Position numbers and translations under genes: made by a program | The notes under the pieces: generated by a model | The model's input: only the letters and a program-made list of their open reading frames with translations | Database searches by the model: none | Told to the model about the DNA's origin: nothing | Part shown: piece after piece, positions 10,624 to 55,966 of the stretch | Layout of the letters: each line of letters starts with the position of its first letter | Numbering within the stretch: position 1 is the stretch's first letter | Source: Capitulum mitella | Lineage: Eukaryota > Arthropoda > Thecostraca > Pollicipedomorpha > Pollicipedidae | Length of the DNA stretch: 64,000 nt | Direction: 5' to 3' | Assembly (NCBI GenBank): GCA_030062745.1 | Contig: CP099851.1 | Location: 10,914,393-10,978,392 of the forward strand

Positions 10624-11944
10624 TTAACACGTGTAGTGGAAGGGGGTTTCGTGCTAACGCGCAATAGAAGGGGGTCAAAAAGTGCCCCCCCTCTGATCTC
10701 GGCAACGGAAAGAGCTGGAGACATGAAATTTTGTGGATGGGGTGGGGGCTATAAGGATTTACATTGTGTGCAATTTTTATGGCCCTAGATCAATATCTTC
10801 AAGGTCAAATGGGGTGGAAAAAGTCAACTTTTGATACTTTCTCGGCCCGTACAGGCCATTCCATACAATTTTTCGAACGAAACAGGAAAAGGGTGTTTGT
10901 TTGGCCGTTAAAACGAGGCGGACGACAACTTCCCTCCATTTGGCGTGTTGACGCAGGATTTCGGGTCGAGGTTATGCCAGGTCATTAACCTATGTCGTCA
11001 TTTTTTCATCTTTTGGAGAACAGATTTCCAACAACACGGAAGTAGCTTGAGTGTAAATAAGGGCAAAACACGTATCTTTTGGCGTATTTTCAGCGAAGGT
11101 AGTCAATATCGGTACATTTGGTCATTTGCAGCGTTTCTATTTATGTATTTAGGTATATGTATATATGCATATACTTGTATCATTGTGTCAAAGTGTTTTT
11201 ATTAGGGTCCTTGAATGCATATTTCATACAAACTGGCATATTGCAAAGGAAATCTGGACCAGGTTGCTAAATAGTCGCTCTTGACCTTTGATAACCTTGA
11301 CCCGATATGACCCTGGTATATATGTAAGCGTATCCATGTGCGCACACCAGTTTTTATTATGGTCTTTGAATGCATATTTCACACGAATCGACACGTCGTA
11401 AAACAAATCTGGGCCAGGTCACAAGATATTTGACCTTGACCTTTAGTGGCCTTGACCTTTACTGACCCTGGTATTTGCAAGCGTATCAGTGCGTGTACAC
11501 GTAATTTTATTAGGGTCTTTGAATGCGTATTTCATACAAACCGACATGTTGTAAAGCAAATCTGGATCAGGTCACAAGCTGTTCGACCTTGACCTTTGAT
11601 GATCTTGACCCTTATTGACCCTGACTTTGATCTCGGTACATCCATCACATGTGCCCAGATGACGTCGCGTGATTGTGCTCAAACGGTGATCTTAGGCAGA
11701 ACGCTGGTTCTTTCACCAAGTTCCCATTTGTCAGTGACAACCGTCGTTTTCGTTATGCTTGCCTTCAAATGCTTGCAACTTCAAAAATGTTCGGCCGATT
11801 TTCGATTTTTCTGCGTCATTCGACGAGTTACTCAATTGGCAAAAATGCCATAAAGTTGCAGCAACCAGCTCCGATCAGTTTTCGAGATATTCAAGAAAAA
11901 CAGGTGGGGGGGACAAAAAGACCCCCTTCCAGTGCCCGTGTTAA
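10624..11944. mobile_element. Non-autonomous element with TTAA ends and G/C-run inverted termini
   Basis: The left end TTAACACGTGTAGTGGAAGG (10624 on, with a second diverged copy of the end just inside it) matches the reverse complement of the right end, TTAACACGGGCACTGGAAGG (ending 11944). In both ends the match continues into a GGGGGT..CCCCCCC palindromic stretch and an ATCTCG-type motif. The interior carries three 153-bp tandem units and many AGGTCA/TGACCT half-sites, and no transposase. TTAA at both outer ends is the target choice of piggyBac-type elements, but the superfamily assignment is tentative. Confidence 0.55.
11197..11640. repeat. Three tandem units of about 153 bp
   Basis: Units begin with TTTTATTAGGGTCCTTGAAT (about 11197), TTTTTATTATGGTCTTTGAA (about 11350) and TTTTATTAGGGTCTTTGAAT (about 11504). 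Each continues through a CATATTTCA[CT]ACNAA stretch, AAATCTGG.CCAGGT and a GACCTTGACCTTT-type stretch. The array lies inside the TTAA-ended element. The third unit ends in runs of GACC half-sites. No coding potential is seen. Confidence 0.85.
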
Positions 11945-29100: not shown

Positions 29101-29771
29101 GGCACTGACCAAAACGAACCGAGCCCAGAGCCAGGTCGAGGCCAAAGATCAGCGAAGTACTCCCATAATCAAGCGCCGCCAGTCAACTTCTTGTGCGACA
29201 TTTGGGGTACTGCTTTAGTCTTTTCAGCGAAATGAATGTTCCCTCAGCCACTGAGACCTGATTTTATGGGTGGGTACTGGCCCTCTGGCCCGCTTTCTGC
29301 TGGCTGTCGTGCTTAATTTTGTTGAAGCCTTCAAGACAAGGGTGGAGGTACAGATGCGTCCGTAAACCAATGCAGCCTTAAGAAAAAGACTTCGTACTGT
29401 TTGGATTCCTACCCCATATTTCCTGGCAAGGTAGGACGATGGTGGGAAGTCGCCAGACGTGAGCCAGACCCATACCCGGACCTCCATTGTCCCACCGCCC
29501 CATTGTTTCTGTTTGCTCAGCTACGGTTACCCATCTCCTCGGCGGATCACCGCCATCACGGGTCGGTCTCTGGAAAACTCGTCTGGTGGCCCCGTCCCTG
29601 TCGGCACGGCTCGCCGTCTCAGCACCGCGCGCACCCTCGGCGTCCTGTCCCCGGCTGCATGGCTAACTTCTGCCGCCCCATGCCGGGCCGTGTTTGCGCT
29701 CTGTTTCACTGGCCGCCGCCGGAGCTGGTGTCCGGCGACTTCAGCGCTAACTTTGCCTGAAAACTTACCGC
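26126..29771. other. Non-coding stretch with GC-rich patches
   Basis: No gene recognised. GC-rich patches lie at about 26870-27245 (with a G14 run at 27217-27230, the longest homopolymer in the window) and 27870-28640. Long frames on both strands over the second patch are compositional. A short frame at 26530-26608 contains a reverse-transcriptase-like FFADDLYLW string but has no supporting flanking motifs. Confidence 0.4.
28120..28330. repeat. Degenerate GC-rich tandem repeat, about 65-75 bp
   Basis: Units begin GGCACGTTCTGCCGACGCTG or GGCCCGTTCTGTCGACGCTG and continue with GAGGACCGCTGA repeats and a CAGCGGCAG stretch. There are about three units plus internal GAGGACCGCT doublings. This is an old minisatellite. 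Confidence 0.75.
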
Positions 29772-30071
29772 CTCCCTCCCCCGACTCTCCCACCGGCTTC
29801 CTCCCCCGACTCTCCCACCGTCTTCCTCCCCCAACTCTCCCACCGTCTTCCTCCCCCAACTCTCCCACCGCCTTCCTCCCCCGACTCTCCCATCGGCTTC
29901 CTCCCCCGACTCTCCCACCGTCTTCCTCCCCCGACTCTCCCACCGGCTTCCTCCCCCGACTCTCCCACCGGCTTCCTCCCCCGACTCTCCCACCGGCTTC
30001 CTCCCCCGACTCTCCCACCGGCTTCCTCCCCCGACTCTCCCACCGGCTTCCTCCCCCGACTCTCCCACCGG
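29772..30071. repeat. 25-bp minisatellite, 12 copies
   Basis: Twelve near-identical 25-base units, each CCTCCCCCGACTCTCCCACC followed by GGCTT, run head to tail. Variants at two or three positions (CAACTC, CATCGG, CGTCTT) are concentrated in the first six copies, and the last several copies are essentially identical. The minus strand is G-rich with several G-tracts per unit, compatible with G-quadruplex formation. Frames stay open on both strands because the unit has no stop, so they are not evidence of coding. Confidence 0.97.
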
Positions 30072-31708
30072 CTCAGCCCTCGAGCCCTGGAGGCATCACC
30101 GCGTGCAGAGGGGGCCGCGTCCTCCTCTCCAGCGAGCGGGCTTGGGGGCTAGGCATCTTTGACGGTTCTGTCAGATCTCATGGGATCATCATCACTATGT
30201 TTATTACAGTCGCAGTATTGTTCGAATGTGAAAATGGGCCTTAAAACCTCGAGAAGGAGATAATTCCATCAAACCCGGAAGTGTTGGGCTTCCCTCGCTA
30301 CTGCAGCTGCGACCGTCCGCCGTGACGTCACTGGCCAAGCGGGGACTCCCGGACGTAGTCTTCGAACGAACGCCTAAAGACCCGCGAACTAGTGTGAAAT
30401 CGACGGCAGACAATGGAGCTCTGTGTTGTAATGGGACTGGCCCTCGCCAGACTGCTTCAGCGGAACGCGACACGAGTCCCGTCTGGTCGCGCAGATTTCA
30501 CACCCGGGCGGTGGAAGGGGAGCGCGGAACGGAAACATTGAATTAGGCATCGAAACATGTCTCACAGGCTGCGCAGAGCCCGAACCGCCGGACGGCGGAC
30601 GTCGACTGCCACGAAGAAATGAGTGGTTTAGAGTGAGATCCTCAAGGATGAGAAACGTTAGTTCGATGCTTTTTGGTGCTGTGCCTCAAAAGCATGGAAG
30701 CTGAATGAGTTGAACTTATTTCTTTCATCTAACAACGCTGATGGTAAAAAGTGGTATCCGTTTTAGCTCCGGAATGAACCGGTTTCTTCTCTTCCGGCCC
30801 AAATATCCTACCAATGGCATCCGGGGTGACGGTTTTGAGCATCTGAGCAGCTGCTGGACGTAGCTGGAGCCCAGCGACAGTTGAAATGATGGAAATATCC
30901 GCTTTAGAGCGCGGAACACATTTCAGCATCCCTGGTCTCTGAGTTTTAATAGCAGAATATGAAGAAGTTGGATAATGTTAATGCGACGGTCTGTAGTCAA
31001 GAATATTGAAAAATACAACGAATTTCTTGACATAAGCAGTGCGTAGCGGCGACTCGGATTGTATTTTTAGACTGGCTTCGTCGCAGGGATCACTCTCTTT
31101 GTAATACGAGACCACAGTATGGACGCCATCGGTAGATATGGTGTTTGCATCTGTCCGTGTGCTGATAAATTGTTTGTGATATCACACGATTTATTTTCTT
31201 ACTACGCATAATTAATATTAGTCACCATGGCGGTCATGAGAGCTGTGTAGGTATCTGTAACATGAGCTGCGTAGGTATCTGGAATCTGGTACTTCTCATG
31301 TGGTTAACAAGCGTGGAAGGCTAGGGTATTTCCATTGAAATTTCTGACGAGAATGATGTATTATTTTACGTCATTTCTTTTGGTACGAATGATTCGTGTG
31401 GACCAAGAAACCTGCCCATAAGAGCGGGAAAGAAAGAAGAAAAGGGGACTAATTTCATCCACCCAAATGTTTCGCTTCCAATAACTGTTGAACGTGACAC
31501 CTGAAGCAAACTTTTTTGTATGGATGGCCACGTGCTGGATGCAGAAGCAAGTGAGTTGCCCGTTCATTGCAAACGGAGCGGGACACTTGCGCGCTGCATC
31601 TGCATGTACTCCGGAGTGAGTTTCTGTGTCTCTGCTGGTGCCAGCCACCTGCTGTTCAGCTGGTGATTCTGGGCCCGGTTTTACTTCGCAGTTTTAGGTG
31701 CTTCTGGA

Positions 31709-50374: not shown

Positions 50375-50406
50375 GGGGTTCGGTAAACAAGGATTCCAGT
50401 GCCAAA
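50375..50406 (+). CDS. PKC: Conventional protein kinase C, 32-nt exon (C1A, first-half end)
   Basis: This short exon encodes GFGKQGFQCQ, the conserved end of the first half of the C1A domain of calcium-dependent PKCs. Its cysteine is a zinc ligand. The acceptor is TCTGTTCCAG and the donor GTAAGT. The exon takes one base (G) to complete the preceding codon, as expected for the conserved Trp (TG|G) before GFGKQ, and leaves one base (A) for the next exon. The reading continues exactly in frame into 50807-50889. PKC is a membrane-recruited serine/threonine kinase; C1 domains bind diacylglycerol or phorbol ester and zinc. The exon is too short to identify alone, and its neighbour makes the call secure. 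Confidence 0.92.
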
Positions 50407-50806: not shown

Positions 50807-50889
50807 TCTGCAGCTACGTCGTCCACAAGCGCTGCCATGAGTTCGTCACGTTCAAGTGCCCGGGCGCGGACAAGGGGGCCGATTCAGAT
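50807..50889 (+). CDS. PKC: Conventional protein kinase C, 83-nt exon (C1A, second half)
   Basis: Encodes the second half of C1A, with [20 protein letters not shown] followed by DKGADSD. The Cys, His and Cys residues of CSYVVHKRC, and the later Cys, are zinc ligands in the C1 pattern. HEFVTF.CPGADKG is a signature of conventional (alpha/beta/gamma, fly Pkc53E-type) PKCs. The acceptor is CTGTTGCAG and the donor GTAAGT. The first two bases complete an Ile codon with the A left by the 32-nt exon, and the exon ends in phase 0. Third positions are mostly G or C (23 of 27 codons). The following linker leads to C1B, encoded by either of two alternative exons. Confidence 0.97.
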
Positions 50890-51943: not shown

Positions 51944-52055
51944 GACAAGCGAACTAAGCACAAATTTAAGGTGCACACGTACAGTAGTCCAACGTTTTGC
52001 GACCACTGTGGATCCCTGCTGTACGGCATCATTCATCAGGGGATTAAATGTGAAG
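51944..52055 (+). CDS. PKC: Conventional PKC, alternative C1B exon version a (112 nt)
   Basis: Encodes the linker DKRTK and the first half of C1[18 protein letters not shown] then [15 protein letters not shown]. The zinc ligands His-1, Cys-14, Cys-17 and Cys-31 (C1 numbering) are all present, and position 22 is Tyr, as in conventional PKCs. It is the canonical version, closest to fly-type Pkc53E (GIIHQG). The acceptor is GCTCTTCCAG and the donor GTAATT, entering in phase 0 and leaving in phase 1. The exon that should follow, encoding the CDMNVHKQC-type second half of C1B, is not in the window. A second version of the same exon lies 3.8 kb downstream. Third-position G or C occurs in 21 of 37 codons. 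Confidence 0.97.
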
Positions 52056-55000
52056 GTAATTCGGAGCTGGCAGCGCGTCGCTTCGATAGAGGCCACCGTC
52101 TTGGTCACTCCACTATCGAACGCATCAGCTGACGCTGCGCTTTGCATGTGCTTGGTGGCATGGGTCTGATGTGTTCGGATTATGATGGATTCCGTGCCTG
52201 TTCTGCACGCGGTGGTTGAAAAGCCGTGGAAAGCCACTGTTGAGTGGCTTGGCCGTCCATGGCGGAATGGGGTTGCACGTGTCGTAGATACCATTGTTTG
52301 TAAATTTTCTCATTGTCTTTTTGGGGCCTGTCAAATCTTTCGCGAAAATATGCCTGGCATTTTCGTAAGGATAGTTTTTGAATTAAAAGTTGCGGTCAAC
52401 GTGGTTTTGAATGCGGCCCCTTCCATGGAGTATCGCAGGGCGAAATGTTGAAATTTACAAAAGTTGGCGATGGTGTGCCGGTCTCCATCCTCTGCGCTGT
52501 ACGTAGTTACTTGGACCGCGGTTCACCGGATGAGAGGAAATATGACTGCGTTCACTACAAAATGGAGCCACATTTTTGATGTAGCTGTTTGCTATAACCA
52601 AATGTATTCCCAGTTGTCGAGGAGCTGTGTTTGCCCAAACAAAAAGTTTGACGTCAAGGATACATATTTTGATCATGAACACGCCGGACACAATACATAG
52701 AAGAATAATCGTACAAAAAAACGAAACAGTGAATTTGTGCCTAAATGACTGGATGAAAGTAAGCTTATTCCATCTTCTCAGTTAATAACAGTCGTTAAGA
52801 ATAAGTAAACGAGCTACACTTGACCTATATGTGGTATCAATCCAAAACGTTATTCTGGTACATGAAATCATTCTTGCAGATATGCACGTAAATGTACGGT
52901 TGCTCGCGAAAGAAAATTTATGGGTTCTTTCGCCCATGGGCTGGAAGAGCGATAATATTTTTGCGGAGCATACCCTACACCAGAACGTTGCCTTAGCATC
53001 AGACGCTTCTGAACATTCCATGAGGTGAACTGCCACAAACATACAAGCATACAAGCAAGACAAATTTGTCCACTTTTTGAGAGCAGTCATGGGCGTACGG
53101 CGGACTCTTGCGGTAGTGCATGATATTCATATAGGCTAATGTTTGGAACGTAATGCAGTGGGATGTAGCCGGGGAGAGACGAGGTCGTCCTTTGGTACAA
53201 TCCGTCGCAAACATGTGACTAACGCTCCGGGCGTTCCTTGAATGTTCGCACTTCTGCCATTACGTGCAACTATGGGCACCGCGAGACACATTTCGAACTA
53301 GATGAAATTTTGCGGTGCGCCTGGGGCAGTCGCAGGGAAAAGGCGTTGGAACTTCAACACTCTCCCCCGCCTTGACACCACGATGAATCCCTTGAATATG
53401 GTTTCTGTCGGCCATTTGCTTCTTTCGATTTTTATTCGCCAGTTTCTTCAACGCATTTCATTCTCTGTCAAGAACCTGAGGTGGGGAGATGGGGGTCGAG
53501 GATTTGGCGTCGGCTATCAGTGAGACAACATCTCTCCCGTGGCTGGTGGGTGCAATTTTCGTTTCATTTGACTTGTAGGTAAGAGTTCGTAACACGGTAA
53601 GGAAGTCAGGGCTGCAACGCGTTCCCCGCCGAAATTGTGTTTAGTTATGGTAATAATGTCAGATGGAGCGTAGCTTTGACAGTCCCCGGTAATGTCTTGC
53701 CTTCGTACCGTGCAAAGCGGCAGTTAAACCAACATTGACCGCAAAACGGCTGTTGGACGGGTATCGACGTTCACGGTTGATTGCAATGGACATTGGCTGC
53801 AGGTAATGGCGTGTCCATTGTCGGCCAGGGTCCATGGCGGCACGAGCATGCCCAGTAGTCCTCAACCAAATAGCTCGGGGTACGAGCCTGGAGATCGACG
53901 GCCAACTTGTGGCCTTTAAAATATCAAACGGAAAGCTTAAAATTGCTGGTCCACTTTGCTTTTCCAGGGATTAGGTTAAGTCAGGTATAGGTAGTAGACA
54001 TCGACTGCTCAGAGTTTACGTGCCGCCACAATGCGTTATTTTGCGTCGGAAAACGACATTTATTTCGGCCCCCTCCCTGTCCACTAACTTTCCTCGTTCA
54101 GCGCAGAAGTCGCAGGTGATTTCCTTCCGCCCTCGTTCGCGCGAATGGCGTGCAGATGCGCGAGTATTGTGAAACATAGCGGGGGGTTGTGTAAGCTGTC
54201 TGGCCTGCGGTCTGTTGTGTTTTAGCATCTGCGGCAGTATGTTCTGCGGCATTATGTGGCTTGTGTAACGAGAAGCGTCTTACCGCGTCATCGGTCGAGG
54301 CCACCGTTGTTAACGTAGTGGCATCACGATGCGCTGCACTGAGTCAGTTTGTTGCTGGTGTTTCGTTAAGTTCAACATAAAGAGGGCGTTTTCGAAAGGA
54401 TTCCCCATTACGGAGAGGGATGGAAATTTGTTAGAAAGCTGTTCGGAAACAAGCGACCATCTGTGTTATTTGCACCGATGATGTTCGCTGGCTGGGAGGC
54501 AACGCCGACACTTAGGCCTGCCCATTACCGCTCTGCTCAGCCGTTGACGACCTTAAGTTGCATTGCCTGGATATTGCAGAATCACGTTTGCTTTTGTATA
54601 AGGAATGTTGTTCAGCTTTTGCGCAATAAACAGCCGAACACCGAATACATTTCTCGTCGCAATTTCCCAAAAGAAGTGGGACGGATGGGTATTCTCGGGT
54701 TCCTCGACTCTCCATTCTGCGGAGCTTTCAGGCTGTTGGTAAGCGGAACGCCCCGTTAATTCTCGACTCGCGTATGTTGCGAAAGTAGCTGCCTTAAATC
54801 GACACATTCACAGCGTCCGCCGACTGTCCCCAGAAACGAATGTGCATCCATTTCTGTCCTATAACGAGGCGCAGTTCAGACGGGAGGCGACCTTCGATGA
54901 CCGTCGAGAGTCTGTTGCCGTGTCAAGACTCGTCAGGTATTACCCGTATCGCAGCTGGCATTATTCACCCGATTTGTACCGTGCGGCGTTGTGCGTACTG

Positions 55001-55118
55001 CGGATATACATGTATATATCGGAAACAACGTCCTGACGCCGAGGCATCGATCAGTGCAGCGGCAGGAAGGGTAGCGGGGTGATATGTGACTGAGTGGTGG
55101 TTCGACCGCCCGGTGCTG
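52056..55118 (+). other. PKC intron DNA between the two alternative C1B exons
   Basis: About 3 kb of mixed-composition DNA with no further exon copy recognised by scanning for the Thr-Phe-Cys-Asp-His-Cys coding pattern. A CRE palindrome lies at 52649-52656. No gene on either strand is supported. Splicing enhancers or competing RNA structures that could enforce exon choice would be expected here, but I cannot identify them by eye. Confidence 0.6.
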
Positions 55119-55470
55119 ACCAGAGCTGGTCACCGCCTGGTCAGAGCTGGAGCCGCCTGGTCAGAGCTGGGGCCGTCTGGTCGGAGCTGGGGCCGTCTGG
55201 TCGGAGCTGGTCACCGCCTGGTCAGAGCTGGGGCCGCCTGGTCAGGGCTGGTCACCGCCTGGTCAGAGCTGGAGCCGCCTGGTCAGAGCTGGTCACTGCC
55301 TGATCAGAGCTGGGGCCGCCTGGTCAGAGCTGGTCACCGCCTGGTCCAGAGCTGGAGGCGCCTGGTCAGAGCTGGGGCCGTCTGGTCGGAGCTGGAGCCG
55401 CCTAATCAGAACTGGTCACCGCCTGGTCAGAGCTGGGACCGCCTGGTCAGAGCTGGAGCCGCGTGGTACC
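55119..55470. repeat. Minisatellite, 20/21-bp unit, about 17-18 copies
   Basis: Units alternate between GGTCAGAGCTGGAGCCGCCT (or GGGGCCGCCT) and a 21-base GGTCAGAGCTGGTCACCGCC T form, with GGTCGGAGCTGGGGCCGTCT variants. The array lies in the intron 385 bp before alternative exon b. Its in-frame translations are simple repeats and not coding. Its size is probably variable between individuals. Confidence 0.97.
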
Positions 55471-55854
55471 GGCTTTTGGTTACCAGCGCTGTCCGCTGGT
55501 CGTTCCCGAACTCCCCCTCCACCTAACTTCTACCTCCACATCCCTGAGAATTTACCACCAATTCCGCATGCGCACCCACAGACAACATTACAACAACTTC
55601 GTCTCCACCTCGGCCCCGGCCTCTGCCCACACTTCGGCTTCCAATTCCATGTCCACATCTGCATACACTTTTATGTCGACGATCACATCGACCTGCACAT
55701 CCACAGCCCCTTTCACATCCACATGCGCATCCAACTCCTCATTAAAATCCGCTTTCACCTACATCCAGATCCACGGGCTCATTCACGTCCCATGCCCCTG
55801 GCATTTGGCCGGCCGCGGTGAACTCGGCGTACACACGCTACCGTCCTTCGGCAG

Positions 55855-55966
55855 ATCGAGTCGGCCATCCACCAGTGGGTGGAGCACACGTACGCATCGC
55901 CCACGTTCTGCGACCACTGCGGATCCATGCTGCACGGCCTGTCCAAACAGGGCCTGAAGTGCGACT
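55855..55966 (+). CDS. PKC: Conventional PKC, alternative C1B exon version b (112 nt)
   Basis: Encodes IESAI then [17 protein letters not shown] and [15 protein letters not shown]. It has the same length (112 nt), the same entry phase (0) and the same exit phase (1) as version a at 51944. It keeps His-1, Cys-14, Cys-17 and Cys-31, and 20 of 37 residues are identical. Differences include Phe-3 to Trp, Val-5 to Glu, Tyr-22 to His, and a GLSKQGLKC end that resembles novel-type PKCs. The acceptor is CGTCCTTCGGCAG and the donor GTAAGC. Using both exons, or neither, would shift the downstream frame, so exactly one can be used. Third positions are almost all G or C (34 of 37). An alternative reading is a fragment of a second PKC gene, but the matched length, phase and strand favour a duplicated, mutually exclusive exon. 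Confidence 0.93.

Follow-up and report, generated by a model that had tools for sequence, protein, structure and literature searches.

The 64,000 nucleotides we investigated (hereafter the window) come from the barnacle Capitulum mitella (assembly GCA_030062745.1, contig CP099851.1, positions 10,914,393 to 10,978,392 of the forward strand). They contain part of a gene for a conventional protein kinase C (cPKC), in which an exon for the first half of the C1B domain is present twice. All exons of this gene are on the plus strand and are given in window coordinates. Exon 4a (51944-52055) encodes a C1B first half of the canonical cPKC type, exon 4b (55855-55966) encodes an alternative C1B first half, and the two are separated by an intron of 3,799 nt (52056-55854). 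Both exons are 112 nt long, are preceded by AG and followed by GT, and are entered in phase 0 and left in phase 1. They are identical in 20 of 37 residues and in 70 of 112 nucleotides, which corresponds to a nucleotide divergence of 37.5%. A whole C1 domain has eight zinc ligands, and four of these (H6, C19, C22, and C36) are present in both exons. An earlier sequence-only reading of this stretch had described two such half-exons 3.8 kb apart on the same strand, and our recheck confirmed their length, phases, ligands, and the 20 shared residues.

Joined to exon 5, either exon gives a complete C1 domain, which matches Pfam C1_1 over positions 1-53 of 53 with 72.7 bits for the a form and 73.8 bits for the b form. 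The junction codon with exon 5, which begins with CC, is GCC (Ala) after 4a and TCC (Ser) after 4b. In searches of the PDB, PKC beta chains were placed at the top for both forms (E-values of 2.6e-26 for a and 1.4e-17 for b); these are whole-chain values that sum the C1A and C1B of a chain, and the bit scores for the C1B stretch are given separately here. Against the C1B stretch alone, 4a scores 71.5 bits with PKC alpha and 68.5 bits with PKC beta, and the half-domain encoded by 4b scores 49.4 bits with PKC alpha, 48.1 bits with PKC delta, and 44.3 bits with PKC beta. The spliced b form of the domain (C1B-b) matches the C1B domains of cPKCs over all 50 residues (77.9 bits with PKC alpha), and the match to the C1B of PKC delta also spans 50 residues (72.9 bits).

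The remainder of the gene was outlined after 100 kb had been added on each side of the window (264 kb in total), using tblastn with a human PKC alpha query and considering matches with E < 3. Exon 1 is found upstream of the window at -7062 to -6872 and starts at a likely ATG. Exon 2 (50375-50406; 32 nt; ccag before and gtaagt after; phase 2 in and 1 out) encodes part of C1A (GFGKQGFQCQ) and matches the query in 10 of 10 residues. Exon 3 (50807-50889; 83 nt; gcag before and gtaagt after; phase 0 at its end) encodes the second half of C1A and the linker; its translation is 82% identical to the query, and its donor is common to 4a and 4b. Exon 5 (76246-76374; 129 nt), the shared second half of C1B, lies 20 kb downstream of 4b and is followed by the C2 exons 6-8 (87012-90105), by exon 9 with the hinge and the start of the kinase (97867-97998), and by the kinase exons 10-15 (100435-112570). 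Two last exons were found, Ct1 (116653-116832; contig 11031045-11031224; 180 nt) and Ct2 (134261-134413; contig 11048653-11048805; 153 nt). The order on the one strand is that of a conventional PKC gene, from pseudosubstrate through C1A, C1B, C2, and kinase to the C-tail, with one three-exon C1A, two C1B first halves, one second half, C2, kinase, and two C-terminal exons.

A single copy of each of exons 1-3 and 5-15 was detected in the 264 kb, and two further tblastn matches, both on the minus strand (E-values of 0.26 and 2.9), look like noise. With the same query and threshold, neither a C1B second half nor any other PKC exon was found in the intron between 4a and 4b. Within the 64-kb window no exon 5 is among the tblastn matches listed up to an E-value of 1000, and the pattern CxxxxHxxC has six matches in the window, the sole C1 among them being exon 3. 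Since the only exon 5 found lies downstream of both 4a and 4b, 4b is placed in the same gene as 4a. Together with the C1_1 scores, this anatomy supports the claim of the sequence-only reading that a single cPKC gene carries interchangeable C1B half-exons with a common C1A and kinase; the C2 is shared as well. One irregularity is found in exon 13 (110653-110743; contig 11025045-11025135), which is 91 nt long, one more than the 90 that the frame requires, with the slip near DYIAPE. This is either an assembly error or a real lesion; a similar slip in a second PKC of this genome, described below, leans towards consensus errors. A minisatellite with units of 20, 41, and 61 bp (about 17 copies of the 20-mer) occupies 55121-55467, a few hundred bases upstream of 4b; the tandem-repeat scan listed none adjoining 4a.

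When the gene is spliced in silico, exons 1 to 12 read as one open frame with either 4a or 4b. If both exons are skipped, a TGA is reached at the fourth codon of exon 5; if both are included, 4b is read after 4a without a stop of its own, and a stop follows in exon 8. Both combinations thus behave as the sequence-only reading had predicted. The pair consists of homologous neighboring exons with equal length and phases, located between common exons, and using both or neither leads to an early stop, which is the pattern of mutually exclusive exons. Frame-constrained mutually exclusive exons form a class of homologous tandem exons with the same phases and a length that is not a multiple of 3. Exons 4a and 4b share these traits, but here the length is probably inherited, and a spacing of 3.8 kb speaks against a steric mechanism of exclusion. 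The exon series of 32, 83, 112, and 129 nt is that of vertebrate PRKCA (as in human PRKCA), and the exon in question was probably 112 nt long (1 modulo 3) ancestrally. Since the length was probably inherited, duplicating the exon was enough to produce the frame effect, which on its own does not point to selection for exclusivity. The distance between the exons is probably too long for a crowding of splice sites; therefore, regulated choice plus decay of the wrong products is the likeliest mechanism of exclusion.

Under this mechanism, exon 3 would be spliced to one of the two exons, 4a or 4b, and this in turn to the single exon 5, while nonsense-mediated decay would clear mRNAs with a wrong combination. 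The two resulting kinases would differ only in about 37 residues of the diacylglycerol (DAG) sensor. Probably both exons are in use, with each transcript containing one of them. We consider it very probable that the locus is one conventional PKC gene of the arthropod Pkc53E type, in which exon 4 has been duplicated in tandem and its copies, each encoding a C1B first half, are spliced in an either-or fashion.

The similarity between the two exons is far above chance. The 264 kb contain 521 open candidates of the form AG-112 nt-GT (279 on the plus and 242 on the minus strand). Scored against the protein encoded by exon 4a, 4a itself reaches 213 and 4b reaches 127, and the next best of the 521 candidates reaches 9. 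In neutral simulations that started from 4a and were run to the observed divergence (100,000 runs), the fraction without a stop, with all four ligands, and with at least 20 identities was 1e-5; starting from 4b, none of 100,000 runs had these properties. The NG86 estimates for 4a versus 4b are dN 0.435 and dS 0.880 overall, and dN 0.282 and dS 0.867 for the core codons 10-36. Exon 4b is conserved beyond the neutral expectation, which attests to constraint on the pair in the past but not to use today.

The swapping of C1B halves is not unprecedented. The isoforms of Drosophila Pkc53E differ in their C1 domains, and the PB and PC/PE mRNAs were detected by reverse transcription PCR, according to the isoform and primer descriptions in PMC10318518. 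The isoform-specific reverse primers given there translate as EPFTYAG (B/F) and WQNVTF (C/E), and paired with a common forward primer they give products of 289 nt for B and 282 nt for C/E (PMC10318518). If the Trp of the second primer aligns with the conserved Phe, the 7-nt difference between the products is the sum of 3 nt for a one-residue difference between the isoforms and 4 nt for an offset of the primer ends. The six residues that the primer gives for the fly exon (WQNVTF) and the amplicon sizes thus fit an alternative C1B half with Trp at the Phe position. Since the primers encode two C1B first halves, this part of C1B is already exchanged in a fly cPKC: the PB and PA/PF transcripts differ in this half from PC/PE (PMC10318518), like those expected from the barnacle gene. 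Exon 4b has Trp (HQW) where 4a has Phe (HKF). The fly C/E primer also encodes Trp, which in the alternative fly half replaces the standard Phe on the alignment derived from the amplicon sizes, and 4b thus appears to share a Trp signature with the fly alternative.

The two systems also differ. Unlike 4a and 4b, which have equal length, the fly PC/PE isoform is one residue shorter than PB (678 versus 679 aa; PMC10318518). A further difference of nine residues (670 versus 679 aa), which the amplicons place between the C1A motif TFCSHC and the C1B primer, is a feature of the fly gene. For the fly gene, the isoform descriptions in PMC10318518 contain different N-terminal sequences and no alternative C-terminal tails, whereas the barnacle gene has two candidate tail exons. 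The sequence-only reading knew of no description of such a switch in conventional PKCs; this part of it has to be given up in view of the Pkc53E transcripts that differ in the C1B first half (PMC10318518) and the inclusion of Pkc53E in the list of PMC9741552. That list, of genes for which tandem-exon substitutions are annotated, includes PRKCB, Pkc53E, and pkc-2 and leaves the exon unspecified, and many such cases are treated there as convergent. A search of the open-licence literature returned no paper that pairs protein kinase C with mutually exclusive exons and C1B, and a text search for PKC terms in two surveys of human exons (PMC5740500 and PMC4465641) and a review (PMC9013439) found none. 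The beta-I and beta-II forms of vertebrate PRKCB provide a further parallel, in that a duplicated exon pair in a cPKC gives rise to two isoforms; however, the PRKCB pair encodes the C-terminal tail (50 residues, as given for PKC beta in PMC13385876) and not the C1B sensor, as 4a and 4b do.

C1B has been described as the DAG and phorbol sensor of mature cPKC (PMC10586763). To place the differences between the two exons, we equated exon residue n with PKC beta residue 96+n, using the PDB alignment and the residue names found in PMC13385876. In the account of the PKC delta C1B in PMC9110374, the floor of the headgroup site is formed by Tyr238, Thr242, Leu251, and Gln257, and the hydrophobic rim includes Leu250, Trp252, Leu254, Val255, Met239, and Pro241. 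Residue 252, a Trp in novel PKCs and a Tyr in conventional ones, is termed "DAG-toggling" in the same account, and exchanging Tyr and Trp at one C1B position alters the apparent DAG affinity significantly (PMC9110374). All four floor positions (PKC delta 238, 242, 251, and 257) are retained in 4b. Also kept, as S15 and F18, are the equivalents of S111 and F114, which in PKC beta II make autoinhibitory contacts with pT641 and helix alpha-B, respectively (PMC13385876). At the rim, 4b differs from 4a by Leu to Met at PKC delta position 250 (Leu121 in PKC beta numbering), Tyr to His at 252 (Tyr123), Ile to Ser at 255 (Ile126), and Ser to Ala at 239 (Ser110), and His127 is replaced by Lys beside the rim. 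The summed hydropathy of the seven-residue loop is 11.7 in 4a and 1.2 in 4b; two C1A loops compared have values of 4.5 and -2.2, and a polar loop is thus not unheard of in C1 domains. With less confidence than we have in the gene structure, we infer that C1B-b keeps the DAG headgroup pocket and the autoinhibitory contacts and has a more polar membrane rim. With pocket and contacts kept and the rim polar, the b isoform would be expected to be normally autoinhibited and to act as a weaker or differently tuned DAG sensor, which would bind DAG membranes more weakly, or with a dependence on pH or anionic lipid.

Several observations weigh against our main reading of the locus. Over H6-C36, 4b is identical to 4a in 20 of 31 residues and is about as near to other C1 domains: the identities are 21 with a C1 of the same genome that we presume to belong to PKD, 20 with another that we presume to belong to a novel PKC (nPKC), and 21 with rat PKC beta. 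The half-domain sequence of 4b does not by itself single out a cPKC. The splice sites of 4b are weaker than those of 4a (acceptor at the 94.0th versus the 99.4th percentile, donor at the 96.2th versus the 99.5th) on a rough matrix score, ranked among all AG or GT sites in the window; on the same score the acceptor of exon 3 is no higher than that of 4b (93.1th percentile). GC content at third positions differs as well, being 0.57 in 4a and 0.92 in 4b. Finally, 4b is linked to the fly exon by six residues and a calculation from amplicon sizes, and the functional prediction for C1B-b is read from residues only.

Half-domain identity and PDB scores do not decide whether 4b was derived from another PKC class. 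It is identical in 18-21 of 31 residues to the non-C1A C1 domains compared. As an exon, it is tied to this cPKC gene by its length, its phase, and the place where it lies. An alternative explanation is that 4b is an old duplicate, once kept by selection and now silent. Its weaker splice sites and its greater divergence from cPKC C1Bs are in line with this view. Nevertheless, we regard it as unlikely, because frame, splice dinucleotides, the four zinc ligands, and core residues are intact at 37.5% nucleotide divergence, 4b completes a C1 domain as well as 4a does, and an alternative C1B half is transcribed in flies (PMC10318518). If 4b acted mainly as a poison exon, it would be joined with 4a, shift the frame, and lower the level of PKC, and the stop in exon 8 that follows double inclusion would serve this end. 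A poison exon does not need constraint on C1 coding, yet 4b keeps both coding constraint and C1 quality, which makes this explanation very unlikely.

Still less probable is an assembly artefact, in which 4b was placed here from elsewhere or represents a collapsed duplicate. The 1-nt slips in exon 13 and in the kinase of the second PKC, and the low gene completeness reported for an earlier C. mitella assembly (BUSCO 67%; PMC11331182), could be taken in its favor. However, a PF00130 scan of the whole genome (477,042,490 bases, 16 contigs) gave at least 19 matches, a lower bound as the scan misses short half-exons such as exon 5, and among these matches only 4a and 4b resemble a cPKC C1B; moreover, the phases and length of 4b fit this gene exactly. 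That 4b belongs to a second, tandem PKC gene, which the sequence-only reading had named as a possible refutation, is hardly credible and was rejected: two Drosophila cPKC genes do lie about 25 kb apart (PMC10318518), but the search of the 264 kb yielded neither a second C1A nor a second exon 5, C2, or kinase exon, and the single set of exons 1-3 and 5-15 contradicts this explanation unless the assembly lost a gene.

The single cPKC gene with its duplicated exon 4 also has a second place at which its products may differ. Both Ct1 and Ct2 follow one kinase exon in phase 0 (after FKPRI), and each has its own stop. Two last exons that follow a common kinase exon in the same phase are the arrangement of the PRKCB-type alternative C-tail, and Ct1 and Ct2 resemble PRKCB beta-I and beta-II in position; we take the C-tail to be Pkc53E-like. 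Ct2 has the usual motifs LTPTD and FSGFSY. The corresponding motifs of Ct1 are LSPAD and FRGFEY, with Glu at the phosphosite of the hydrophobic motif. Ct1 scores 29.4 bits and Ct2 47.0 bits with Pkinase_C, and the best PDB match of Ct1 is the atypical PKC iota (E-value of 4.2e-6; PKC alpha, 1.3e-5). If the choices of C1B and C-tail are both free, the gene would encode four kinases. A broader proposal, which we advance tentatively and consider rather doubtful as a whole, is that of an ancient pancrustacean switch: a Tyr/His swap in C1B and a Glu-tail swap would together give four kinases, each pairing one of two DAG thresholds with one of two kinds of dependence on phosphorylation of the hydrophobic motif, and the C1B switch would be older than the divergence of barnacles and flies.

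The family labels of the PF00130 matches other than 4a and 4b are our assumptions. The second PKC is located on C6 (from 20911461; L003 1384-3067) and has C1A, C1B, and much of the kinase within 1.7 kb, which suggests few or no introns; we take it to be of the novel type. Its kinase match is broken by a 1-nt slip at L003 2418-2420. Elsewhere in the window, a 25-bp minisatellite at 29767-30073 (12.3 copies, 96% matches) is open in several frames, and a 153-bp tandem repeat at 11195-11623 (2.8 copies) contains TGACCTTGACC-like motifs. Rfam and tRNA scans of the window gave no matches.

The barnacle gene is probably able to produce two forms of one enzyme that are tuned differently, and the fruit fly appears to do likewise. 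The occurrence in both barnacle and fly suggests that arthropods may have long swapped the C1B sensor, which would then not be an oddity of flies. A natural pair of half-domains, one with His and one with Tyr at the DAG-affinity position, in an otherwise identical kinase would provide a ready-made comparison of how the DAG threshold affects signaling.

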